Source of the DNA: Clavulina sp. PMI_390 | Taxonomy: Eukaryota > Basidiomycota > Agaricomycetes > Cantharellales > Hydnaceae | DNA: 64,000 bases | Reading direction: 5' to 3' | Assembly (NCBI GenBank): GCA_015039315.1 | Contig: WIDE01000010.1 | Span: forward strand, 87,236-151,235 | Shown here: one piece after another, positions 1-58,630 of the stretch | Layout of the letters: each line of letters begins with the position of its first letter | Numbering within the stretch: the first letter of the stretch is position 1 | Made by a program: the position numbers and the translations under genes | The notes under the pieces: generated by a model | The model's database searches: none | Told to the model about the DNA's origin: nothing | What the model saw: only the letters and a program-made list of their open reading frames with translations

Positions 1-1017
1 ATCTACTCACATGGACGACATCAATCTTGGGGCTAGTCCTTTGTTGTGTTTCATCCCACTGCCATACTACGGGTGTAAGGTCTGGGTTACACCTAAATAG
101 CCATTCAATCGTCAATTCAGCGCTCTGCTCTGTATAGTGAGGCAGAATCACATGAGCGATTCCCTCAAAGAATTTAGGCAGTGATCAATATGTTCATACG
201 GGGGATCGCCTGGTAGTCCGATCGGAATGAACTTGGGTGAATGGTGTTGCACGTCGCCATCAAGTGGCCCTTTCAGCTTTCGTCGAATCATGTCCTATCC
301 GATAACGATTATTGTGTTGAGTAATAGCTCTCTCCGTTCTGGTGAGTAGGATTCACTGACAAGGCAATGCAGTTGGTGGAAGACATCAAGATCGATAATG
401 TATCGAGCCTCTCCCAAACGTTCGGTATCATCTTGCACCCTCTCGGTATGGTTTAGAAGCGGCTCAGCCATCCAACGAGGAACCGCTGCCGGACTATCTG
501 AAGCCATATGTTAGCTGAATCTCGTAAAGAAGATGGTACCGCAGTGGCGCGTACATGGTAAGTAGAGGCTCTCCCAAAGCTGGTCTCGTGCCTTGGTTCT
601 CGGTCCGTTGTAGTCTGAGGCTTGAGTGAACCGGTCGGAGAGTTTGAGCTTATGTGTGATGAATTCGGAGGCAGGCGCTGTAAAGGAATGTATCCAGGGT
701 CTAGCGAATGATAACATGAGTCGGTACTAGTGCTCACAGTAGACAGGCGCCGCTCCCCGCCATATGGCCCATTGTTCGCCCTTCCTCAAGAGCACTGGTA
801 TCTTCCATCCATTGGTGGCAAATATCGAAAGGAGTATGATGTTGACGGCAAAAGAGAGTCCAAAGAAGATGCCTAACAGCTTTGCTCGGCGACTCGCAGC
901 ATCAAGCTCGTTTGAGTGAGCAATCTCGGTGTCGACATCGTGGAGAGTGTCAAGCTCATATTTCTTGGTGAGCGAGTCCACAGAGGGCGGCAGTAGCTGG
1001 TACTCCGCCACAGGCAT
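1..1017 (-). CDS. UstYa-like (DUF3328) oxidase-family protein A, 3' end beyond the window
   Basis: Start ATG is at 1017. Exons read from splice signals are 1017-738, 677-555, 497-361, 294-152 and 92-11; a GTGAGT donor at 10-1 means the last exon lies outside the window. The N-terminus is cytosolic and is followed by one membrane segment (about residues 47-67, LLGIFFGLSFAVNIILL), then the family motif APVYSPA. Both copies of the defining HxxHC motif are present: DVFHQLHCL, and YEHIDHC running into SLMCNPDLTPVVWQWDE. UstYa proteins are membrane-anchored and are known in ustiloxin, asperipin and phomopsin pathways to catalyse oxidative cyclisation of Tyr-containing core peptides. Reading through without the fourth intron gives a false stop after SLM; removing a 60-nt intron (151-93) restores a canonical SLMC motif. 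It is a paralogue of the next gene with identical intron phases. The substrate is inferred from the precursor gene about 3 kb away. Confidence 0.86.
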
Positions 1018-1778
1018 GGAGGGATCGTACGATTGGGAGGAAAGGGGAGGGGCGGAGAGGTAGAAACCACTCAGGGAAGCTCAGTTCCTGGTGGGATTTC
1101 GAGTTTGACCTAGTTCATCGAGAAAATAAGCTCAACTCGATGAGGCGGCTTGGCTAGCATATCAGATTACATGGTTTGGATTCACGGAGTGTTCATCTGC
1201 GCCCGCAATTAGCTGGAGTGAGTATCGGCCACATGGCAATGCTTACTGGGCTACTTACTTGCGCTGCATCTAATAATACCTCGTTTGCTTGGGCGCAGAA
1301 GCCGGTTGGACGCGCGCCGAGCGTTAACGCTGGTCAACGCAGGATTCCTCCGGACAGAAGCGCAAGATTCGAAGGATCTATGGAACAAGATGATCGCGAT
1401 CGCCACGGCTCCAGTCGGTTGGGAAATGATACTCCGGGCCGTTGATTAAGCGCCATGGTCCACTCTTGTACGTACTCGTTCTCTGTCTCGTACCACATGG
1501 TTTGTCGAAATCTGAAGCTGATAGAGAATTATGATCGTTTCTATTGTTCTTTCTAGAGCATGATGTAATTGAGATCAGTATGTATCGACACACTCAGGCT
1601 CAGCCTTGCTTCAGAATTGATGCTGCACAGAGCGCAAAAGTGCCAATTAAGTTACGAGGTCTACGTATGACAACGTGACGAAAGGAAGTAATGTACCTTG
1701 GAGGGCAATGGAATCATGACCCCGCGATGGTCTTGCGAAATATTCTGCAAGTTTGGTAGAGTACAATCAACGGAAACC
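1018..1778. other. Intergenic region between the two UstYa-like genes
   Basis: This 761-nt stretch should hold the promoter of protein A and the 3' UTR of protein B, since both genes run on the minus strand. Short open frames here have no recognisable domain, and I see no RNA gene. Confidence 0.5.
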
Positions 1779-2908
1779 TTATTGATCGTCCGGGCGCGCT
1801 TTGTCGAGGTAGCTCCAGTCATAATTGTGCAACGCGTCAACGTCCACCGACGTGTATTCTTTAATAACATCCTTGTACGGCTGCTCAGGATATTGCAAAT
1901 CGTCAGGTGCGAAATGCCAACGATCAAGGGGAGTTTTTGCAGCAACACTTTTCGCGAAGTCACTGATCCGATCCCAGTTTTTGCACGTGTGAACATTCGT
2001 GAAGTGGGGATCCGACACCCGTGCTCTGGCGTTCCACTTCCACCGGATTGGGGTCATATCCGCATTACACCTGGCGATGTATCGAGCGTGAGTCGGTTGG
2101 TATGGCAGGTCTGGGTGGTATTCAACGCACATTAGGCTCTGCCTGATACTGTTCGCACAGTGGTCCAGATGCTCAACATGAGAGCCAACGCCAAAGGTCA
2201 AGTTGTTCATTGGATATCGCTCCGGATACAGGGTCTTGCGCAACGCATTCTGTAGGAACCGTCAGGGAATTGAGTGCGACATCATGCAAAGGTAATTTCT
2301 ACACACCAGGCAGTGGAGTTGATGGAAGACGTCCATGACAACAACGTAGTGTTCTTGGTCATTGTAGAATTTCAAGGTCGGGCCTTCGAGCTTGGAGGCC
2401 ATGCTTCTCGGAATCCCAGAAATACCGACTAGGGACGTGTTAGAAGCAGAACCATACGTACGCAGCTTTTATTAGCTGACGCACATTGATAAAGGTCGTT
2501 CCATGCCTCGTCAACTTCATCAGTAGGCGGACCGCCAAAAGCTGTAATGTCATGGATGTCCGGAAACCTGACGTGGACATGCTCGACGACGTCGTTTGCG
2601 GGCGCTACAAGATGGATGAGAGATCAACAGAGTCTGGAGTGTAATGGGACCGTACTCCATACTGGCTTAGCACCCTTCCAAGGTACCGAATGTGTTACCC
2701 TAACTCTCATTGCGGCAACAACAACCAAGAGGAAGATGTTCACGGCCACAGAAAGAACTAGTAGTGAGCGCTCTATTTTGTAGCGTCGAGTAGAGATTTG
2801 GAGGGGTTTCTCATCTGGGAGCATGTATTCGTTGGCAACATCATGCTCATCGTCGAGACTGGACTTGCTGAGGAGAGGTTGCTGGTACATCGAAGTTGTT
2901 GGGGACAT
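1779..2908 (-). CDS. UstYa-like (DUF3328) oxidase-family protein B, complete
   Basis: Five exons: 2908-2656, 2604-2485, 2428-2307, 2249-2131 and 2070-1779, giving 301 aa. The ATG at 2908 (MSPTTSMYQQ) was chosen because it puts a short cytosolic tail before the membrane segment (about residues 48-66, LLVLSVAVNIFLLVVVAAM), as usual for the family. The lumenal part has KPVWTPAND, the first motif DVFHQLHCL, the second motif HVEHLDHC running into SLMCNADMTPIRW, and the late HTCKNWDRISDF block typical of UstYa proteins. All four introns have the same phases (1, 1, 0, 2) as in protein A, so the two arose by tandem duplication. It is divergently placed to the repeat precursor, with 1.1 kb between start codons. 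Expected role: oxidative cross-linking of that precursor's core peptides in the secretory pathway. The family assignment is strong; the substrate is inferred. Confidence 0.9.
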
Positions 2909-4016
2909 TGCTGCGAGATTCGGGGGGAGGGTTGTAGGGAGGATGGGCGATATGGGGTGCTGAACAGACTGGAGTGGTGTTCGGGGTAGCAGCTCCCGCG
3001 TAGTTTGATGGGAGAAACACCTCGTAAGAAGGTTCAATGGAAGCAAAAACTGAAGATCATGCGCAGCTCTGCACATCCATGTGGGGAGCCACCGCCCTTC
3101 TCGATGTCAGCTCAGGTCGCTCATGCATGAAGGTCTCCAGGATGGAGAGTCCAACACGGATGCAATCACAGGGGATATTCTACGGTCTGCTTGGCCGATG
3201 CCGATCAATAGGGCTCAATAGAATAAGAGACAGGCGCAAGATGAACCAAACTGAGAAGGTTTATTCAGACACGTACATTAATCATCGACGAAAATAGCCC
3301 ATATGGGGAAGTTGTGCTTTATTTATGTTTGGCCAATCAGCATCTCAGTCTTCCTTTTGCATGTTCGAGCTTACTTCCTGCGATTCAGAGACTGCATGAC
3401 GCTGCGAGATAAAAGATTCATCCGCTGCAGAACTGATGGGTCTTCGTCAAAAAATGATGGTCGTCTGATAGGGATTGCTCTCGCCTTCGATTAGCCCGAG
3501 TCTAGTTCATCCACCTGTAGAGTGACTCTTGTACAAAAAATCTGTTGAGATGTTATATATAAGCTTCAATCGGTCGTACGGCCATCATGTTGGCTTGGCC
3601 GAATGCTTGAATCAGTCAGGAAACGATCTCAGGCGCGTGTGGAGTTAGGCCATATGGCTGCTTGGAAACCCAGAGAACGCCAGCAGTTTTTCATAAGATT
3701 TTCTGGCACCATTTTATAGGTCCGTCTTGAGCCGCCGATATGAGTAGTTGATCCTTCGCGCGCTAACTCGATAGCTTGATCATGGGCCAGCCCACGCTAC
3801 ACGCGGGCTGTTGCACACTACATCTCTATGAAAGAATGGCTTAAATTATGAGCCCAAGAGGATATAAAACCCCTCAATGCTTGTGGAGAGAGGATATCCC
3901 AGTCTCCTGCCACCACTCCATCTAAGGTGACTCTAATTCTCGTCCAGTTATACTGGCTCTCATCCTATGTTAACACCAGCAGCGTAGACCTACTACCGTG
4001 CTCAACATTCTTGGAG
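2909..4016 (+). promoter_or_regulatory. Divergent promoter region with a TATA box for the peptide precursor
   Basis: This 1.1-kb region separates the starts of UstYa-like protein B (minus) and the precursor (plus). A clear TATAAA stands at 3863-3868, about 150 nt before the precursor ATG. A second AT-rich TATATATAA run lies near 3552-3560. An upstream ATG at 3967 opens a six-codon reading frame that stops at 3987, just before the main ATG, and could modulate translation. A shared intergenic region suits co-regulation of enzyme and precursor; that is inference. Confidence 0.55.
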
Positions 4017-4480
4017 ATGAAGGCTACCACTTACATCGCTATCCTGGGTGCTATGGGCACCCTCGGGCTTGCCGCCCCGCTCAAGGTAAGAATGTCATTT
4101 CAGTTGAGATCGCCCTTCCGCGGTCCATAATAACGAATCATGCTCAACTATCTTCCCAGCGTGCGGAAGACGCTCCTCCCGTTGACACAGAGTTTACCGC
4201 GTACGGTGGTGAGAAGCGGGTCGATACTCCTCCAGCTGATACAGAGTTCACTGCTTATGGTGGGGAGAAGAGGGACGACACTCCCCCCGTTGATACCGAA
4301 TTCACTGCCTATGGCGGTGAGAAACGTGATGACTCGCCCCCCGTAGATACCGAGTTTACAGCCTACGGTGGTGAGAGGCGCGATGATACGCCTCCCGTTG
4401 ATACCGAGTTCACGGCCTATGGCGGCGAAAAACGCGTTGATACGCCTCCCGCCGATTACGAATTTCCATACTGGAAGTAA
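4017..4480 (+). CDS. Secreted Kex2-processed repeat precursor, candidate dikaritin-like RiPP precursor
   Basis: Two exons, 4017-4085 and 4160-4480, separated by a 74-nt GT-AG intron with a GCTCAAC branch-like site, give 129 aa. The first exon is a signal peptide (MKATTYIAILGAMGTLGLAA). The second exon is almost only six peptide units. The first ends at 4219; units of exactly 54 nt follow at 4220, 4274, 4328 and 4382, then a shorter divergent last unit at 4436. Typical unit: DDTPPVDTEFTAYGGEKR. Units end in KR four times and RR once, all Kex2 sites. The block DTEFTAYGGE is invariant in the five full units although codon third positions differ. The last unit ends DYEFPYWK. The layout matches ustiloxin-type precursors, and two UstYa-like genes lie alongside. 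It could alternatively be a linear Kex2-processed peptide signal. The cross-linking chemistry is unknown. Confidence 0.85.
4166..4480 (+). repeat. 54-nt tandem coding repeats of the peptide precursor
   Basis: Five full units and one partial unit lie in tandem in the second exon; units 2-5 are exactly 54 nt. Ala codons in the core use GCG, GCT and GCC, Gly codons GGT, GGG and GGC, and Thr codons ACA, ACC, ACT and ACG, while the encoded decapeptide is unchanged. The P-P-V/A-D spacer and the first residue of the unit (D or V) vary. Confidence 0.9.
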
Positions 4481-5202: not shown

Positions 5203-6645
5203 CTAACACACCATGAACGTTCTACATTTGTCGCAGTATATCTTCCTTTTCGGAAGTGTATTCTTTCTTGGCATTCGTTTTCGACGAACACACGAATGTG
5301 GGGGATCCGGCCAGATATGGGGAAAGTCCCAAAAAATGGAGTAACGAGTTTGCGATTCCTCAATGGATACCTTTCTTAGGACTGGAAGGATCGTCTCTCT
5401 ACCAGTAGCCCCGAGTAATCCTTCACTGCTGGTGGCGGTCTGAGAGTTGAGCGCAATATCCGTGGAAACCTGCTCCAACGTACGTGAAATGCTGTTGAGC
5501 AGCTTCCCGTGCCCGTACGAGTCGCAGAAATTCAGGTTCTCGACGTGTGAAAAGGCTTGGAGCACCAATAGGATAACATCGTGGTTGATGCGGCAGGCGG
5601 AGATTGTGAGATCGCGCACGGGCATCTCCCCGAGTAACTGAGGGAGCCCAATAAATACAGAGTCATGCTGGCCCCCATATTCTGGGAAAGGCGAGTAATA
5701 TAACTCTTTGGACGTCAAAGTTACACTGTGGAGGGCTGGTGTGCAGATGTCATACCAAATCGTAAGGACATTAGTGGTAACATTTTCAACAAGGGGCAAG
5801 AGGACGTGGGGTTGGCGTGGAGTAGAAGAGATGGAATCTGCGGATGCTGTGATCCTTAGCGCAATGCGCAGCTCTCGGAGAGTGGGAAGTTGTGTGAGCG
5901 TGTCACAAACATTTCCCCAGAACCGCGCGGTGACATCCAGCTCAATGAAGGTTAGCGTTGGCCATGGGACATCAATGGCCTTCGGAAGATATCGCTCTGG
6001 ATCTGAGAACTTCAAAGCTTGGAGTGGAGTGCTTTGCGGCGAAAGGCTCCATGGATTGTCCCAAAGCGACACATCACCCTGCTCTCGCTTTTGATCGTAA
6101 TGTTGAATGGATAACACTTCCAGTAGTGGAAAATTCCACGGCTGTAAGAGTTTAGAGAGCGGGAGCGATCCTTTGGTTTCAATGAAGTGGACAGATATCG
6201 ACCTGCATCGCTCCATATGAGGCTCAAGGAGTTCACCGATGGCCCTCCAGTATTCCTCGACCACGACCTGCTCGTTTTCGGGAAGCAGTTCGAGAGATTT
6301 CCACGAGCGAGGAATGTGAACGTATATCGGAGAATGTTTCGATCGCTCCAAAAAGCATCGCACCCTATCAATATCGCTTTCCAGGAGCCGTGTTGGGTGC
6401 TTAGGGTCGCTCCATGAGTCTATTTTAGGGGTTTTAGAGAGTTTGACATATATTTTGGCCCAAAAGGGCCCATGTTGAAGAGCAACATTGCGCCAGCGGG
6501 TGGAGATGGATGTGATGGTGAGAAGGGAAGCGAGGGTTCTACGCGCTGAATCTCCAGCACAAAGTAGAAGATAGTCAATTACAAGAAGTAACAGTTCATT
6601 TGGAAGCACGTCGACTGGTGCGCGGATTGTTGAAAAGATGGCCAT
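5203..6645 (-). CDS. F-box-like / leucine-rich-repeat-like protein
   Basis: A single open frame of 480 aa from ATG 6645 (MAIFSTIRAPVDVLPNELLL). The frame is open further upstream, but this start puts the F-box-like segment VDVLPNELLLLVIDYLL at the N-terminus, as expected. It is followed by a helical block (residues about 28-60, STRWRNVALQHGPFWAKI), then irregular leucine-rich segments such as PLLEVLSI and LPTLRELRI. Basidiomycete genomes carry many such proteins, assumed to be substrate receptors of SCF ubiquitin ligases. The Cys/Lys-rich tail (CDKCRTFMVC) is unusual and may mean a missed 3' intron. It is only distantly like the six F-box-like loci elsewhere in this window. Confidence 0.7.
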   Translation of the reverse strand: MAIFSTIRAPVDVLPNELLLLVIDYLLLCAGDSARRTLASLLTITSISTRWRNVALQHGPFWAKIYVKLSKTPKIDSWSDPKHPTRLLESDIDRVRCFLERSKHSPIYVHIPRSWKSLELLPENEQVVVEEYWRAIGELLEPHMERCRSISVHFIETKGSLPLSKLLQPWNFPLLEVLSIQHYDQKREQGDVSLWDNPWSLSPQSTPLQALKFSDPERYLPKAIDVPWPTLTFIELDVTARFWGNVCDTLTQLPTLRELRIALRITASADSISSTPRQPHVLLPLVENVTTNVLTIWYDICTPALHSVTLTSKELYYSPFPEYGGQHDSVFIGLPQLLGEMPVRDLTISACRINHDVILLVLQAFSHVENLNFCDSYGHGKLLNSISRTLEQVSTDIALNSQTATSSEGLLGATGRETILPVLRKVSIEESQTRYSIFWDFPHIWPDPPHSCVRRKRMPRKNTLPKRKIYCDKCRTFMVC

Positions 6646-8815
6646 TTGAGTACAGTGCCGTCTATAAGAATCCTGTGACGGAGACCAGGCCAGCTTGTGT
6701 AAGATATATGATACAGAGAGATTATATGTTTCCCTTGTTCCAGATGTCACAAGTGGGAGGGATGTTATATGATCGTCAGCGGCTGACGCAGTCTAAGGCC
6801 GCCCCCCGAATTCTTCCCACGGACAGGGAAGTGTGTGAACCGTGACAGAGTCACACATCGATCCCAACGACGATGACATACAGCCTGGAAGGAGCTGCAT
6901 CCGTCAATTATGTCCTGGACTTTTTTAACGTGTTTGTTGACGCCTAAAAACCTTCTTCCTACTTCTACCTGCTGAAATCTCGGCGGTGACTCCTCAAGCC
7001 TCAAGGATGGTCTGCATCCTGAATTCGACCCCTTTCTAGATAGAACGCAGTATATGGATCTCACCAGTAGCAATCCCTTGGGAAAGCATACCAAGACTAC
7101 TTTCTTCCCTTCTGCTTCGGAGAAGCTGTCGGCTGTTGTCGTTCAGGAAAACCCTGCAGGCACCTTAGGCGACCACCAGGGTGAGGCTGACACAACGACA
7201 ACGTTCTTCATAAAAAGGCTCTCCAATGTCCTACGAAGAACCACGCTCTTCCATGCCGGCGAGGTTCTCTCAAGCTTCACGCTTCCTAGTCCAATCACTT
7301 CTGGCTGTCAACAAACCACGAATATTGCCGTCAATCAAATGCGCGACCTTGCACTCTGGTCAAGGCAACATCTCTACTATGTGCGCTCTCAATATTCCCT
7401 CTTTCCATGTTCCTGATGTGGCTCTCGATCCAGGTATACACGATCACGGCTGAACTCTTATCCAAGGTGGATGCTCAGACTTTTCGCGCACTATCATTTG
7501 ATAAGAACATGATCTGGGTCAATGAGCATTATGCCGTCAAACGCTTCATACCTGCACCCAAACCCTTAAATGCTCCGAACATACTGTGCGGCTTCTCCCT
7601 TCAGAAGTATAATGATGCAACCAAAGCCATCGAGAGAATACTCAAGACTGAGGTCCCTGACGAGTATATGGGCTACAAATCACAGGCCCACCGGCTTCGG
7701 ATGCGCAAAGCAAGCTTCTTCCGCCAATTTGATCGCAACATCACGAGCGAACTTACTCCATTCCTTCGCCGGGCGGAAGTGACTCTCTCGGCAACAGTCT
7801 ACATCGCACCACTCGATGCTATCGGTATGGGTAGTGACATCCGGTTTCATCGCCATTGATGGGCCGAGCTCCAGTTCCAGGCACAATGAGGGACGTTCTC
7901 TGTACCGCCCCCCTTGTTTCAAATTGAGACCCCTCAAACACTGCGGCCGTGATATCGACGTGTCCCAATCTTCCATCGATCTAATCACCCTCCAAACATG
8001 TATGGGACCCATCGATTGTATCTACCCAATCAGACATACAGCCCCTGTCTCCAAGGGAATGTAGCCCATCTTCGAGCGCACGAGGGGGTGGGAATTATGG
8101 GAGCTGATCCTTCGAGGGCTCGAACATTGAGAGTGAGGGCAATGGAAGAAATCGGAGACAAAAGCTACTGTAAGCCAAATATCTTCCCTGAGTTGGTGAC
8201 AGGTAAGCTTACCGAATCTCATTTACAGATCGCTCGGTTCACCCTCCGTCCGTTCAATGTGTGCCGTTATCTCCCGATATCCAGCTGACGCTGCCGCCAA
8301 GTTGAACCTGCTCCCGATCCGCGGCAAGACAAATCGCGCGTTTACGTCTTCCTGTAGAGAGAAGGAAGAGGCTCTCTACACTTATGTGTCTGGCGAGAAC
8401 TGGTTTAGTGCGGGTAGAGGAGCGGTGCGAGTCGGTTGCGGCGACTGCTTGTGCTATAACGTAGTAAGAACTGCTATAGCAAATCCCTGTAATCTCTAGC
8501 TTGTGAAATCCTTGTAGCTTATCATACATAAGCAACTAATAACAATGCGCTGTTATTAATCATTTCATGGATAGGCAAGCTATTATTGTTTCCTATCACG
8601 AGGTTTGGAGTGATTCCGCAATGACCCGGAGTGTGTGAAGCAGCACGTGACGTTGCTCATTCCTTCATCGCGTTACGCACAGATTCTGAAAACTACCCAG
8701 CGAGCTCGCAGCGTCGCCCATAGCGATCCGCTAGACCTATACTGCTCTCTGGAGAGCTTTTTATCTGTCACTTCTAACGCCTGGTTCCGCGTTTCAGTCG
8801 ACAAAAAGGCCAAAC
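6646..8815. other. Weakly coding stretch between the F-box-like gene and the mitofusin gene
   Basis: Several short plus-strand frames (7054-7416, 7407-7859, 7816-8064, 8257-8499) look partly protein-like. I could not join them with phase-consistent GT-AG introns, and none shows a known domain. The stretch may hold an eroded gene. The last few hundred bases should include the mitofusin promoter. Confidence 0.35.
7407..7859 (+). CDS. Uncertain hypothetical ORF, possible gene remnant
   Basis: An ATG-initiated frame of 150 codons (MFLMWLSIQV...) with a fairly ordinary amino-acid mix, for example ATKAIERILKTEVPDEYMGY followed by a basic helix-like stretch. No motif was recognised. A GTATGG donor-like site follows the Ala-Ile codons near the end, so the frame may be one exon of a longer gene, but the downstream frames do not join in phase. 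Reported only as a candidate. Confidence 0.22.
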   Translation: MFLMWLSIQVYTITAELLSKVDAQTFRALSFDKNMIWVNEHYAVKRFIPAPKPLNAPNILCGFSLQKYNDATKAIERILKTEVPDEYMGYKSQAHRLRMRKASFFRQFDRNITSELTPFLRRAEVTLSATVYIAPLDAIGMGSDIRFHRH

Positions 8816-14417: not shown

Positions 14418-16214
14418 TCAACGCTGGGCAAAGCCGATACGAGGAGCATCAGGAGTCTGGTCAAAGATAGCGTAAACGCGCTTGAGGAACACCTGCATCG
14501 AGTGGAGAAAATGCGTCAGCGGAAAAGGACGAAGGGGGAGTGGACCAATGACATACATCACCAAGAATGTCCTGCCGGTTCCAACCGCGGCTCTGGATGC
14601 TGCCAAAATATGTGCCATCGCTGCCAGCTGCAAAGATCAAATCGCTGCCGGGGATCGTGTATGTCGTCCCTTCGACAGCAAATCCAATATCCGGGAGGCT
14701 TGATGGATCGACGGTATTGGGCAAGACCCACCCGCCCTGCGAGTGGTCGAGCTTCGCGCCAGGGATCGATTCATAAATTGCCTTGCACATGGCGTCGTCA
14801 ACAAGGATGAGGGTAGTTCCAGTATCAGCAATAGCGGTATTCTTTGGTGATGCACGTTGATGGACTGTGCCGTTGATTGTGAGAGTGGGGGAGGCGAATT
14901 CCCAGAAGCCGTTGGAGGAGTCGATGGTGGCGTAAGTGATAGGGTTGGTGGTGACAGATTCATCGACATAGCCAAACGTGTAGAATCCCTCGCTGTCGCC
15001 TTTATCGAGCTGAATGGCAAGATAATGAGCGCTTAGGAATATGCTAGACGTCCTCGCAGCTAAGAAACTAACCTTAGCTGTAAAGATAGGCTTCGAGATC
15101 ACTCCCTCATCAATCATGTTCTCAACAAGCGTAGCTTGTGGCGTGGGGTGGATATTGTTTATGCTAATTGAGTCTGTTTTAAAGTGACTACACCTGTATT
15201 AGAGGCAGGACAGACGTACCTGGGGAATGCAAGACCAAGTAGGCCGTCCGAGGCATCATCGCTAAGGTATGAGTTGCTAAGGCTTTTAACAGCCGCAAAG
15301 GCTTGGTTGAGAACTGTGAGGTTCCCTCCGAGAGTAATAGTATCGGAGTACACCGGGCCACCTTAGCAAGGAGAGACAGTTAATAGGACGCCATGAGACA
15401 GGTATCCCTCCTTACTAGCGTAGCTCCCATCACCAAATGGGGTCCACCAAGTTAGGGCCGATTCTTGTTTTGCTGTGGAAGACTTGGTGGGGTCATACAC
15501 ATTGTGTACACTCTTGTTGACACTCGAAGGTAGGAAGGAAGACCACACCCACAAGTCGGAGGATCCTAGCAACGACCAAAGATACCATTATTGTTCGCTT
15601 CGGGATACTCTGGCCAATCGAGAGACTAACCAGTGTCAAAGTCGAGGTTGGCAGTGATGGGAGGGGTCCCGATCCCGACAGGAACAACATACTCCAGATC
15701 TGCATTAGGATTAGACGAGTAGAGTAGGTGATGGAATCGTTATTGCGCCCATCGCAATAAGCCATATGGAGGCCGCTTGTTATCTCCCTGTAGCCAACAT
15801 AATGATGGATGAGAGGACTGCATACCGTTCTGAACATCCTTTGCCGGCACTTTGGTACCAGACACCGTTTCGCCGCCACTGCTAACGGGCGCTCCCCCCT
15901 CAGTTGTGCCTTCTAACCAAAATGCGTAAGTAAACTTTTGTTCATTCAAGGAGCTAGCTGACAAGGCATACCTTCCTGTCCATTTATATGACTCTCGGAA
16001 CGACGCATGAGGGTGTTCTCATGTACATAGAACATCGCTTGTTCGGTAGGAGCAATCTTCCACTTACGTGCAGAACGTGCATACTTGACAAGACCCAGTC
16101 AGCCAATTGACATGGTTAGTAGTATCAGCATGCGAGACGACCTACATCCATGGGACCATTAGGTTTCCATACTGGGTTGCGCTTCAGCGTCAGGGTAAGT
16201 GGCCGGGATGACAT
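14418..16214 (-). CDS. A1-family aspartic protease, paralogue 1
   Basis: Many small exons between ATG 16214 and stop 14418; roughly 430 residues by eye. Exon 1 encodes MSSRPLTLTLKRNPVWKPNG and has no signal peptide. The first catalytic triad is split by an intron (FDT-G then SSDLWVWS). The second is intact (IADTGTTLILVDD). The flap region reads TPFGDGSYAS, with Phe where pepsins have the flap Tyr. The C-terminus is VFLKRVYAIFDQ followed by RIGFAQR, the hydrophobic-Gly-Phe-Ala ending typical of pepsin-fold enzymes. Pepsin-like enzymes cleave peptide bonds using the two Asp residues. The lack of a secretion signal is shared by all three copies and suggests an intracellular or unconventionally exported enzyme, unless a signal exon was missed. 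A transposon is inserted just 3' of the gene. Confidence 0.85.
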
Positions 16215-18573: not shown

Positions 18574-19068
18574 CGCGTAGTTGCGACCGCACCCGTATTC
18601 TGGGCTTGTTCTAGTGCGTTGGTTTCGAGATGCGAAGCAGCCTGTAGCGCCTGACAAATCGCGATGGACCAAACAGCACAGGACGTGACTATATTTCTCA
18701 CGCTGTCTACAGCCAGTCTCGGCTCAGGAGAAGGATAAGATCATGCAAAAGTCCATTAGGGGCCTCAATCTGTATTATGCGCCTCCATGCATAGTGATAT
18801 TCGCCTCCGAGAGGGTTCATAATCGGTGAATACAGGCCACTCTCGCGAAACTATAAGCGCTGAACCAACTGCAAGGCCTTTCTACATTTGAAAAATGGAT
18901 TTCAAGAAGATATGAGTACACGAGCAAGGATACTCGCTCGCAGATGGATGAGTTTACAAGCACAGCGCGTTACGTGGGGCTGAGGACAGAACATGGTGAA
19001 CAGTGTGAGTCATGCAGTGGGCAGCACAAGAATGACAGTGACTGCGGAGAAGTGGCAGTAGCGTTTTC
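18574..19068. other. Intergenic region between F-box-like copy 1 and protease 2
   Basis: F-box promoter and protease 3' flank. The short frames are extensions or shadows of the neighbours. No other feature seen. Confidence 0.45.
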
Positions 19069-20892
19069 TTAGCGTTGAGCGAAGCCAATGGGAGGAGCAC
19101 CGGCAGTTTGATCGAAAACGGCATACACCCGCTTGAGGAAGACCTAGATAGAGTAGCGAGGAACGCATCAGTGGACAAGGAGGTGAAAATTTAAGGAATT
19201 TGATGGTACTTACATCACCCAGGATATCCTGTGGGTTCAGACCACGACTCTGGATGCTGCCGAAATATGTACCATGGCTTCCAGCTGTATAGATCAAATC
19301 ACTTCCAGGCAGTGTGTATGTCGTATCCTCGACAGCAAATCCAATATCCGGGAGGAGCCTTGGATCGACGGTGCGTGGGATCACCCACCCACCCTGCAAA
19401 AGGTCGAGCTTAGCACCGTGGATCGAGCTGTAGATTGCCTTGCACGCAAAGTCGTCCAGAAGGATGAGAGTGGTAGCAGTGTCAATGATGGCAGTATTCT
19501 TGGACGACCGACGCTTCTGGACCTTGCCGTCAATGGTCAGCGTCGGGGATGAGAATTCCCACAAACCATTGGAGGAGTCGATGGTGGCGTAAGTGATAGG
19601 GTTGGTGGTGACAGATTCATCAATGTAGCCAAAGGTATAGAAACTATCGTTATCGCTTTTGCCCAGCTGGATAGCAAAAGGGGATAGCTTGAGATGACGT
19701 CAAGTGATAGGATTGATAAACTAACTTTGACCGTAAAGATGGGTTGCGAAATCAATTTCTGGCTAATCATATTCTCAACAGGTGTGGCCTGCCGTGTGGG
19801 TAATACAGTGTTGATTCTAGCAGGAACGAGTCAGTGAACTGCGCTTCAGGTGCTGATGGATAAGATAGACGTACTCGGGGAAAGCAAGCCCAAGCGCCCC
19901 GTCAGAGGTACTCTCGCCAAGGTATGACCCGCTGAGATTTTGAGCGGCCTCGATGGCTTGGTTGGAAACAGTCAAATTTCCACCGAGAGTAATGGTATCG
20001 GAGTAAACCAAACCACCTTGACGAGGAGAACACAAATCAAATTAATGCGATAGAAGCAAGCTGCATTCCTTACTAGCAGAGCTTCCATCCCCAAATCCGA
20101 TCTTCCAGGTCAACGTCAAGTCTTGCTTTGCAGTGCTCGACCTGGTGGGGTCGTACACGTTGTGCCCGGCCCTGTCGACATTAGTGGGCAGGAGGGATGA
20201 CCACACCCACAAGTCAGAGGATGCTGGCGACGAAAAACGGCATTATAAGCGTTCGGCTTGCTTTTACACCTATGAATTTATGGACTTACCAGTGTCGAAG
20301 TCGAGGCTGACGGTGATAGCAGGGGTTCCAATAGCGACAGGAACAACATATTCCAAATCTACCCCGTATTCGGCCGAGTAGTGTGAGTCGTAGCGGGAAC
20401 ACGGCGCAATTCGTTACAAGGTAACATTGATGAGTCGCTTATCAGTTGCAAGCAGTCAAATATAATCCTGGACGAGATTTCGTACCATTCTGAACGTCCC
20501 CCAAAGGCACCTTGGTACCAAATATGGATCCATCGTCGCTGGTGATGAGGATCGCGCCTTCAAGTGTGCTATCTAATCGCAATATGGGTTAGGATACCTT
20601 TGATCCGACACAGTGACTTAAATAAAGCCAAAACTACCTTCCTGCTCCTTTTGATGGCTCTCAGAACGACGCATGAGCGTGTTGTCATGCATATAGAAGG
20701 TGCTTTGTTCAGTGGGAGCAATGTTCCATTTCCGAGCAGAACGTGCGTACTGAACATCATAGAGTGAGCCGAGCGGCCTGATTAGCATACAAGGGGAGCA
20801 TCAATTTGTGAAGGATGACGCACATCCATGGGACCATTTGGTTTCCACGCTGGGTTGCGCTTCAGCCCCAAGGTGAGAGTTTGAGACGACAT
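19069..20892 (-). CDS. A1-family aspartic protease-like paralogue 2 with DTA in both active-site triads
   Basis: ATG 20892 (MSSQTLTLGLKRNPAWKPNG), stop 19069-19071 after IGFAQR. The exon plan matches copies 1 and 3, and I found no frameshift or stop. Both catalytic triads differ. At the first, the exon-split codon is G then CA, giving DTA before SSDLW; copies 1 and 3 have G then GA, giving DTG. At the second the codons read IIDTATTLILLDD instead of DTGTT, a two-base change to GCT. The catalytic Asp residues are kept. The flap Tyr is Phe (KIGFGDGSS). The Gly after Asp-Thr packs tightly in the pepsin fold, so activity may be lost or changed. Open frame plus altered site suggests a pseudo-enzyme or a new role rather than simple decay. 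Confidence 0.83.
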
Positions 20893-22542: not shown

Positions 22543-24304
22543 TCAGCGCTGAGCGAAGCCGATACGAGGAGCTCCAGTTGTCTGATCAAAGATAGCATAA
22601 ACGCGCTTGAGGAAAACCTGAATGGAGTTTGGGGCATAGATTCAGCGGAAAGGCCAGTAGAAGAGTCAACTAATTGCTTACATCGCCGAGAATGTCCTGC
22701 GGGTTTTGGCCACGGCTCTGGATGCTGCCGAAATACGTGCCATGGCTGCCAGCCGCGAAGATCAAGTCACTGCCAGGGATCGTGTATGTCGTCCCTTCGA
22801 CAGAAAACCCAATGTCGGGGAGGCTAGATGGGTCCACAGTTTTGGGAATGACCCACCCACCCTGGGAGCGATCAAGCTTGGCGCCAGGAATTGAACCATA
22901 AATTGCCTTGCACGCCGCGTCGTCCACGAGGATGAGAGTGGTCCCGGTATCAGCGATGGCGGTGTTGTTTGACAATGCACGCTTGTGGACTTTGCCGCCG
23001 ATAGTGAAAGTGGGGGAGGAGAACTCCCAGAAACCGTTGGAGGGGTCGATGGTGGCGTAAGTGATGGGGTTGGTGGTGACAGATTCGTCGATGTAGCCAA
23101 AGGTGTAAAATCCCTCGCTGTCGCCTTTGTCAAGCTGGATGACAAGACAGTGTTGGTTGAGAATATGGTCGGTTGTCACCAACGTCTTGGCGGCTAAGAA
23201 CTAACCTTGGCTGTAAAGATAGGCTTCGAGAGCAGCTTTCCATTGATCATGTTCTCGACAGGCGTGGCTTGCTGCGTAGGAGCGATAGTGTTGATACTAG
23301 TGAAGTTTGGTTTGGTATGCCTGAACTAATTTGAGGACAACACGGACGTACACAGGGAACGCAAGACCAAGCAGCCCGTCCGAGGCATTCTCGCCGAGGA
23401 ATTGCCTGCTAAGGTTATTGGCAGCCTCAATGGCTTGGTTGGGGACAGAAAGGTTCCCTCCGAGAATGATAGTATCCGAGTAAACCAAGCCACCTTGGGA
23501 AGGAGAGTCAGCTAATGAGCTGCGATGAGGCCAGCTCCTACATACGGGCGGAGCTTCCGTCGCCATAAGTGATCCTCCAAGTCAAGCCCGACTTCTCCTT
23601 TGCTGTGGACGACTTGGTGGGATCGTACACATTGTGCGCACTCTTGTCAACATTTGAGGGTAGTAGGGAAGACCACACCCACAGGTCGGAAGATCCTAAA
23701 CGAGAGAATATATTATCTTTATCCGCTCGATGAGGTCTCTCATTAATGTAGAGACTGACCAGTGTCAAAGTCGAGGTTGGTAATGACGGGAGGAGTGCCA
23801 ATCGCGACAGGAACAACATACTCCAGATCTAGATTAGGTTAGGCAATAAACAATATTGTTAGCTGCCTGCCATTTGCCGATCATCGAAAGCCTGGTGGAT
23901 CAGAGGATTGCATACCGTTCTGAACATCATTCGCTGGCACTTTGGTGCCAGACACAGATCCATTGCCAGTGCTGATGAGCGCTGCTCCCTCAGTCGTACC
24001 CTCTAACCGAAAGGGTTCAATAGATTCTCGAGCCGGAAAGGTAACGATAAATTCAAACCTTCTTGCTCCTTTTGATGATCCTCAGAACGACGCATCAGCG
24101 TTTTCTCATGGACGTAGAACATAGTCTGCTCGGTGGGAGCAATGTTCCATTTACGAGCAGAACGCGCATACTAAATTCCGCCAGGTATCATATTTAGCGA
24201 AACATAGAAGTAAATGGATATGGGAGATGACGCACATCCATGGGACCGTTAGGTTTCCAAGCTGGGTTGCGCTTCAGCCCCAAGGTGAGTTTCTCAGCTG
24301 ACAT
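22543..24304 (-). CDS. A1-family aspartic protease, paralogue 3, canonical active site
   Basis: ATG 24304; exon 1 is 24304-24236 (MSAEKLTLGLKRNPAWKPNG...), with a GTGCGT donor. Exon 2 starts YARSARKWNIAPTEQ. The first triad DTG-SSDLWVWSSLLP is split by an intron after the first base of the Gly codon. The second is IADTGTTLILVDD. The flap keeps Tyr (RITYGDGSS), so this copy has all the residues expected of an active pepsin-like enzyme. The C-terminus is VFLKRVYAIFDQTTGAPRI then GFAQR. As in the other copies there is no N-terminal hydrophobic signal. The N-terminal basic region may act as a propeptide. It is the likely functional reference copy of the array. Confidence 0.87.
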
Positions 24305-57869: not shown

Positions 57870-58630
57870 TCGTTTTCGTACGTGTCCTCCTTTCCGCATT
57901 CTGTTTTTTGATTGTTATCACGATTGACTTCTCATTCAAGTGGTTCCCAAAAAGCTTTATTTTGGCTGATAGTCTGGCCGCTCATCCCCATCTTGATTGG
58001 TGTATAGAGCTTTACGTGGGCGAGGTATGGGGTAGAGGGGCTTTGCTCACCCTTTCGTCCCGGAGTTGTGCTCTCAATACGACTTATCGTTGCCATCGTT
58101 CTTATGATAGCTGTCGTCAATTTTCTTCGAGAAATTAGCTTGTCATGTATCTGCGTGCTGAGAAGAAAAAAAAAGTGGTTATAAGGAGTCCATGCCTTGT
58201 TGACATCTACAGAACCGCAAGAAAATACCATTTCGCCGCTCATGTTTCCCTTTGGTGTACCAAATGATCAAACAGGAATTCCTAGGATGCGAGAAGTTAG
58301 TGAGTCCAACCCAGGCTCCAAGCTTGCGGTATTTTGACGTTCGTAGCTCCATTGGTATGAGTACTTGAATAGTGGGGCGGTAGCGGTGTTATCATGAACA
58401 GCGATGAAGGAGTTGATGGGGGGAATCTGTGGCTGCGCCACAGAGTTGCAGTGCAACTGAATTCCCACACCTCAGTCCTGCTTTTTGACCATCTTCCCAT
58501 CCGAAGGCTGGTACGTTTTCATTCTCTTTAGCAGCCTTTGCTCTTCGCTTAACCTGTACATATAGCATTGTGTATCGAGTCGTTGCAATACTTTCGCCTT
58601 GTAGACACAGTAGACCCAACTGAACATTCG
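57870..58630. other. Intergenic region between F-box-like copies 4 and 5
   Basis: 761 nt with no supported gene, presumably the 3' UTR of copy 4 and the promoter of copy 5. Confidence 0.45.

Follow-up and report, generated by a model that had tools for sequence, protein, structure and literature searches.

In a 64,000-base stretch of the genome of the basidiomycete Clavulina sp. PMI_390 (hereafter the window; it starts at base 87236 of contig WIDE01000010.1, here called C2, in an assembly of 39.4 Mb and 301 contigs), our data point to a cassette of three genes that is probably a dikaritin-like system for ribosomally synthesized and post-translationally modified peptides (RiPPs), in the broad sense that takes in any oxidation of the peptide units by UstYa proteins. 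A precursor gene with Kex2-bounded repeat units is divergent from a pair of UstYa genes, UstYa1 and UstYa2. This arrangement is found at six loci (the window, C2:59-64k, C2:50-55k, C60, C237, and C198; C numbers denote contigs), with the precursor divergent from the pair in 6/6 and with order and orientation conserved. The precursor gene and the divergent enzyme genes have been passed on together as one cassette, in which leader and enzymes are kept while the core is changed on duplication. The recurrence at five other loci supports the proposal of an earlier, sequence-only reading of the window that a basidiomycete applies enzyme-precursor logic of the ustiloxin type to a new core.

The exon-intron borders of all precursors and UstYa genes given here are predictions from sequence. 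The predicted window precursor (4017-4480, plus strand) has 129 amino acids (aa) on two exons (Table 1) and starts with a leader called on hydrophobicity only. Six peptide units follow, all of which had been described as ending in KR or RR; this holds for units 1 to 5, each with the core DTEFTAYGGE, whereas the sixth (4437-4480) runs to DYEFPYWK and a stop codon without a dibasic site. Tyr is present in 6/6 units, and the main core has a single Tyr, with Phe as its sole other aromatic residue. The computed linear masses of the units are M 1712.705 for DDTPPVDTEFTAYGGE, 1668.715 for VDTPPADTEFTAYGGE, and 1726.788 for VDTPPADYEFPYWK. A repeat search of the window recovered the units as a tandem array (4175-4451; period 54, 5.1 copies, score 281) that outscores the other one of the two arrays in the window. 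Unit 6 differs from this array; an inverted copy of the precursor at C2:59k, found by a genome search with the window precursor, has eight units and holds ordinary units 6 to 8 at that place, and therefore one of the two copies was altered after duplication.

Closer inspection of the cores revealed how strongly the peptide is maintained. The proportions of differing synonymous (pS) and nonsynonymous (pN) sites, computed within each precursor on 12- or 14-residue cores, were 0.917 and 0.025 in the window (n = 5, 12 residues, unit 6 left out), 0.830 and 0.036 in C2:59k (n = 8), 0.617 and 0.038 in C2:50k (n = 16), and 0.823 and 0.042 in C60 (n = 4). Since the cores differ at most synonymous but few other sites, the peptide is under strong purifying selection and the array is no fresh duplication. 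Indeed, cores 1 to 5 of the window have their counterparts at the same positions in C2:59k, with 0-3 differences, and hence the repeat array predates the copying of the locus. The duplicated enzymes are likewise constrained, as nonsynonymous divergence (dN) is far below synonymous divergence (dS) both for the UstYa1 copies (dN 0.023, dS 0.262) and for the UstYa2 copies (dN 0.022, dS 0.253).

UstYa1 has one N-terminal transmembrane-like stretch, UstYa2 also has such a stretch, and both proteins carry the two HxxHC motifs that the sequence-only reading had seen in them (HQLHC and HLDHC in UstYa1, HQLHC and HIDHC in UstYa2). Its description of two complete-looking genes is borne out for UstYa1 but not for UstYa2: the window has five exons of UstYa2, out of a presumed six, and the last one lies in a 2,005-N gap (C2:85231-87235) that borders window base 1 on the left. 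A complete UstYa2 copy is present at C2:62783-63971 (six exons, 295 aa). Both window proteins matched PF11807 in a whole-genome profile search; when exons were searched singly, a match was obtained for the end of UstYa1 but not for exon 1 of UstYa2. The possibility that UstYa2 is a broken frame was ruled out, as the apparent break is a short intron whose splice is visible in P0001. No solved structural relative of UstYa was found by sequence or fold search. A partial UstYa2 copy (C2:84371-85230) faces window positions 1-861 across the 2,005-N gap, is 91% alike, and constitutes a tandem copy left unresolved in the assembly.

Table 1. Predicted features of the window cassette and the precursors at C237 and C198 (window positions unless a contig is given)
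Feature	Position	Strand	Description
UstYa2	11..1017	-	255 aa in the window; exons 1017-738, 677-555, 497-361, 294-152, 92-11
UstYa1	1779..2908	-	Complete, 301 aa; exons 2908-2656, 2604-2485, 2428-2307, 2249-2131, 2070-1779
Upstream region common to the divergent precursor and UstYa1	2909..4016	.	1,108 bases between start codons
Precursor exon 1	4017..4085	+	23 codons; MKATTYIAILGAMGTLGLAAPLK; hydrophobic, signal-peptide-like leader ending AAPLK
Precursor intron	4086..4159	+	74 bases, GTAAGA...CCCAG; splits the first Kex2 site between K and R
Precursor exon 2	4160..4480	+	Six units: five DTEFTAYGGE-KR/RR, the sixth VDTPPADYEFPYWK-stop
C237 precursor	C237:36855-36299	-	Repeat units on separate exons, YYR cores
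C198 precursor	C198:124263-123926	-	Repeat units on separate exons, YYR cores

The same type of leader and an intron separating K from R are found in four precursors (window, C2:59k, C2:50k, and C60), and a UstYa pair adjoins all of these complete precursors of the window leader family (4/4). Their cores differ: the precursor at C2:49.8-50.9k has 16 units of a different core, PVDEFLDGSYYGTV-KR (computed linear mass of its unit EAPVDEFLDGSYYGTV, 1760.778), and that of C60 has four units, SPIDELLDGSYYGVA-KR. At each of these four loci, UstYa1 stands next to the precursor and UstYa2 comes after UstYa1. The start-to-start spacing between precursor and UstYa1 is 859-1,377 bases at 4/5 of the loci other than the window; the UstYa1 start at C60 is unsettled. 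A DNA signature of leader and intron, GCNGCNCCNMTNAAGGTR, had five matches in the 39.4 Mb (control, 0), but since the four known precursors served to define it, 4/5 are matches by construction, and the genome adds only a relative on C38. No homologue at E ≤ 1 was found in the protein collection, either with the window precursor (3446 candidates) or with an alignment of the four precursors (7994 scored); since the precursors of the genome itself were likewise unseen in both searches, the collection may lack them or their repeats may have been filtered. A further precursor fragment at C2:58.0k adjoins a 10-N gap (58170-58179). On both sides of this gap, a 1,169-base stretch that includes three precursor units is repeated at 99.9% (C2:57001-59348), likely an artefact of assembly or haplotype.

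The UstYa pairs at C237 and C198 have no precursor beside them by repeat search; the precursors there are of a second type (Table 1). That of C237 consists of a leader, a short exon, and three unit exons (NPDIIIYYR...KRAEEV, NPNLILYYR...KRDEEI, and NPDLILYWR...RRAD), the mutual likeness of which lies above all 5000 shuffles. In the C198 precursor, a leader ending in ...VVKR is followed by units with DDWIRYYRERAEKR and IDANIGYYRR, their likeness judged by eye. A genome search with both revealed three more precursor-like places: C263:34.5k, where a leader (E 0.02) and two YYR exons (NPDITIYYR and SPDIVIYYR) are found from 34529 onward; C237:32866-32714 (E 0.099); and C198:86742-86632, with a leader and a WYYERTEKR stretch (E 0.042). 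The latter two are possibly decayed copies.

In the genome, 13 UstYa copies were found at six loci, as pairs, with one extra partial copy at C2:84.5k, and all 13 adjoin a Kex2-type precursor. When the six UstYa-linked precursors were cut at dibasic sites, 45 pieces resulted; Tyr is present in 39/39 pieces of at least 14 aa, and the remaining six (2-9 aa) are without Tyr. A DNA pattern of the HQLHCL type matched 16 places in the genome (control, 2), 11 of them known UstYa genes; the first genes at C237 and C198 carry HYLHC and hence lie outside the pattern. The five other matches were rejected, four because inspection by eye showed no UstYa context and one because it has no HQLHC. Across 24 aligned UstYa proteins, motif 1 is invariant at H, Q, L, H, and C and motif 2 at H, H, and C, with row P0023 reaching the second motif only through a gap. 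A tree built from 12 genome copies (the partial C2:84.5k left out) and 12/21 outside homologues, with some rows being partial models typed from exon readings, has four clades supported at 100/100 each: UstYa1 (4), UstYa2 (4), the first genes of C237 and C198 (2), and their second genes (2). The order among the four is weakly supported. Within UstYa1, C2:52k and C60, whose precursors share an SYYG core, pair at 92/91, and within UstYa2, C2:54k groups with the window type at 91/82 and not with C60. From these sequences we infer that the association of precursor and UstYa may have about two deep origins and may have been kept through several later duplications.

What the cassette would do can be sketched as follows; here and below, statements on published systems refer to titles, abstracts, and passages of the cited papers. 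The precursor, judged by its hydrophobic leader, would enter the secretory pathway, where the leader is presumably cleaved. Kex2 would cut after KR or RR and Kex1 would trim the ends, releasing acidic peptides of ~16 residues such as DDTPPVDTEFTAYGGE. UstYa1 and UstYa2, working in the secretory pathway, would then oxidize the Tyr conserved in each unit, and by analogy with ustiloxin and asperipin, the oxidized Tyr would most likely be linked to a neighboring side chain. Oxidative cross-linking by UstYa1 and UstYa2 is thus the presumed chemistry. Within the broader interpretation, it is also imaginable that UstYa modification of the peptides is a hydroxylation or some other oxidation that leaves no macrocyclic cross-link, and the single Tyr of the main core with its one Phe would fit this, as would the hydroxylation, chlorination, or transacylation carried out elsewhere by UstYa-family members (PMC12048977). 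However, in described RiPP pathways, UstYa homologues are tied to oxidative cyclization (PMC6514808, PMC12048977), and we regard modification without a cross-link as rather unlikely.

Several observations speak against the dikaritin-like interpretation. UstYa-family proteins do other chemistry elsewhere, including hydroxylation and chlorination (PMC12048977). The six loci do not count as independent events, as the window and C2:59k are recent copies and C237 and C198 have common ancestry, and the cassettes of the window leader family share one leader type. The precursors at C237 and C198 came to light through a targeted, after-the-fact reading, by eye, of the divergent upstream stretches. Tyrosinase and P450 are without match at the loci, P450 among the matches listed (see below), and the Kex2 P-domain profile was unmatched in the genome, although introns may split it; the subtilase profile had 8 matches. 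Furthermore, precursors occur on their own. The relative on C38 (65697-65777 and the next exon), found first as a weak leader match, has the window-type leader and intron position but has lost the first Kex2 site and retains two degenerate units without Tyr, and its contig has no UstYa match. On the 188-kb contig C263, the Tyr-containing exon-split precursor stands without UstYa, as neither the profile search (up to E 10) nor the motif pattern gave a match, and the precursor-like gene at C198:86.6k lies ~38 kb from the nearest UstYa pair. C263 and C198:86.6k together indicate that, in this genome, UstYa implies a precursor, whereas a precursor does not strictly imply a UstYa neighbor. A precursor widespread without UstYa is what the sequence-only reading had named as speaking against it; within this genome, the 4/4 complete precursors of the window family are paired, whereas those of C263 and C38 are not.

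The unpaired genes at C263 and C198:86.6k would suit another explanation, namely, that a Kex2-processed repeat protein yields linear secreted peptides, for signaling or for interaction with another organism such as a tree host, and that the neighboring UstYa proteins act on a different substrate or on none. Agaricomycete Kex2 repeat proteins (Coprinopsis, Lentinula, and Pleurotus) have the same precursor architecture as those of Clavulina and belong to the same class, and the peptides detected from them are linear or minimally modified (PMC9769878; the main text of that paper has 0 occurrences of "UstYa" or "DUF3328"). Moreover, DUF3328 genes were found within 15 genes of only 103/1680 basidiomycete precursors, compared to 1647/5372 in ascomycetes (Umemura 2020, PMC7329392). 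Contrary to this explanation, 13/13 UstYa copies adjoin a precursor, at six loci with order and orientation conserved, and it is improbable that chance proximity would survive several duplications. We therefore consider purely linear products unlikely.

A mating-pheromone-like precursor trimmed by STE13 was also considered. At C2:50k, 8/17 pieces begin with EA, a dipeptide of the STE13 type, and in the survey of Umemura, 17/76 precursors like putative basidiomycete "pheromones" have DUF3328 neighbors, so that a UstYa neighbor does not exclude this kind of precursor (PMC7329392). However, precursors whose annotation was yeast alpha-factor or ascomycete pheromone had such neighbors in three cases only (PMC7329392), and the window units start with AE, VD, DD, DD, DD, and VD, with an X-A or X-P dipeptide in 0/6. 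The missing STE13 dipeptides disfavor a pheromone, which we regard as highly improbable.

The interpretation as a dikaritin-like cassette is best judged against the known systems. Three of the traits that define dikaritins by their DUF3328 enzyme are found here: UstYa with two HxxHC motifs (PMC12048977), a leader followed by repeat cores bounded by dibasic sites, and Tyr in the core; the fourth, a cyclic product with cross-linked side chains, is presumed. As in the ustiloxin B cluster of Aspergillus flavus and Ustilaginoidea virens, a signal-peptide precursor with KR-separated Tyr cores is accompanied by two mutually homologous DUF3328 proteins (UstYa and UstYb), and ustQ, ustYa, and ustYb are required there for the first cyclic intermediate (PMC6514808). 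The core of ustiloxin is YAIG, whereas that of the window is DTEFTAYGGE in acidic units of ~16 residues, and ustiloxin needs UstQ, whereas the Clavulina loci have no tyrosinase match. The sequence-only reading had looked to the surroundings for further tailoring genes such as a tyrosinase or a P450, but profile searches revealed none near the locus, P450 among the matches listed. Of six tyrosinase candidates in the genome, five matched, on C113 and at C198:176668-176982, the nearest ~49 kb from the C198 UstYa pair, and none on C2, C60, or C237; as the search was run exon by exon, a finely split gene could escape. P450 had at least 104 matches (92/173 candidates scored); among the matches listed, none is on C60, C237, or C198, and the only one on C2 is ~315 kb from the window locus. 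A Pfam scan of 27 single-frame open reading frames (C2:44-84k and the window) and three proteins gave no dikaritin-type tailoring gene; aspartyl-protease-like frames aside, the 27 include no methyltransferase, transporter, or peptidase, although multi-exon genes may escape. With neither tyrosinase nor, among the matches listed, P450 matched at the loci, the cassette is nearer to the small asperipin-2a cluster than to that of ustiloxin. The asperipin-2a cluster of A. flavus has four genes, is likewise without tyrosinase, and depends on a UstYa homologue, aprY (PMC6514808); by contrast, its core is FYYTGY (PMC6514808), it has one UstYa instead of two, and it includes transporter and reductase genes, neither of which is among the 27 frames scanned around the C2 loci. 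We file the window locus as dikaritin-like by enzyme and precursor and not in the narrower, tyrosinase-requiring five-gene sense of Ding et al.

The pairing of Kex2 precursors and UstYa in basidiomycetes is already known from the survey of Umemura 2020, whose basidiomycete Kex2 repeat proteins with DUF3328 neighbors show the same pairing as the Clavulina cassette; no characterized basidiomycete product is reported there, the words "Clavulina," "Cantharell," "intron," and "exon" are absent from its main text, and one of its two options is that cyclization "might hardly occur in Basidiomycota" (PMC7329392). Pleurotus ostreatus has 16 UstYa-like genes, "probably involved in dikaritin production," 6 of which are developmentally expressed, but no precursor or product is named in the passages on them (PMC8893723). 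Clan R1 DUF3328 clusters of lichens have two signature DUF3328 genes in two clades, as do UstYa1 and UstYa2, but unlike the Clavulina loci, they are from ascomycetes, include a tyrosinase and a methyltransferase, and have candidate precursors without conserved repeats (PMC12048977). Reviews place dikaritins with the ascomycetes, and with the basidiomycetes they place amatoxins, phallotoxins, and borosins (PMC9233826, PMC12048977). In the openly readable literature, judged by titles, abstracts, and passages, neither a basidiomycete dikaritin product nor exon-split precursors are reported.

Around the cassettes, at 5206-6792 (minus strand) of the window and at C2:70-82 kb, lies a duplicated family of single-frame open reading frames of ~510-560 aa, of which only the window member has an F-box-like match, weak and short of the cut-off. 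Three aspartyl-protease-like frames (PF00026) stand in a row on the minus strand of the window (14464-15198, 19013-19699, and 22673-23200).

In sum, it is quite conceivable, and we propose it tentatively, that UstYa proteins occur in this genome only as partners of Kex2 precursors, in a three-gene cassette that exchanges its core and in a second, exon-split type, and that together these make up an undercounted RiPP family of its own with Tyr-Gly and Tyr-Tyr-Arg cores. Since units on separate exons are invisible to repeat finders that work in an open frame, surveys may undercount such precursors. If this holds true, units carried by exons would let exon duplication add or exchange cores. With all 13 UstYa copies found paired with precursors and exact masses at hand, the question of cyclization in basidiomycetes becomes directly testable, and a set of three genes repeated with different peptides hints that mushrooms have a system of peptide production so far little explored.

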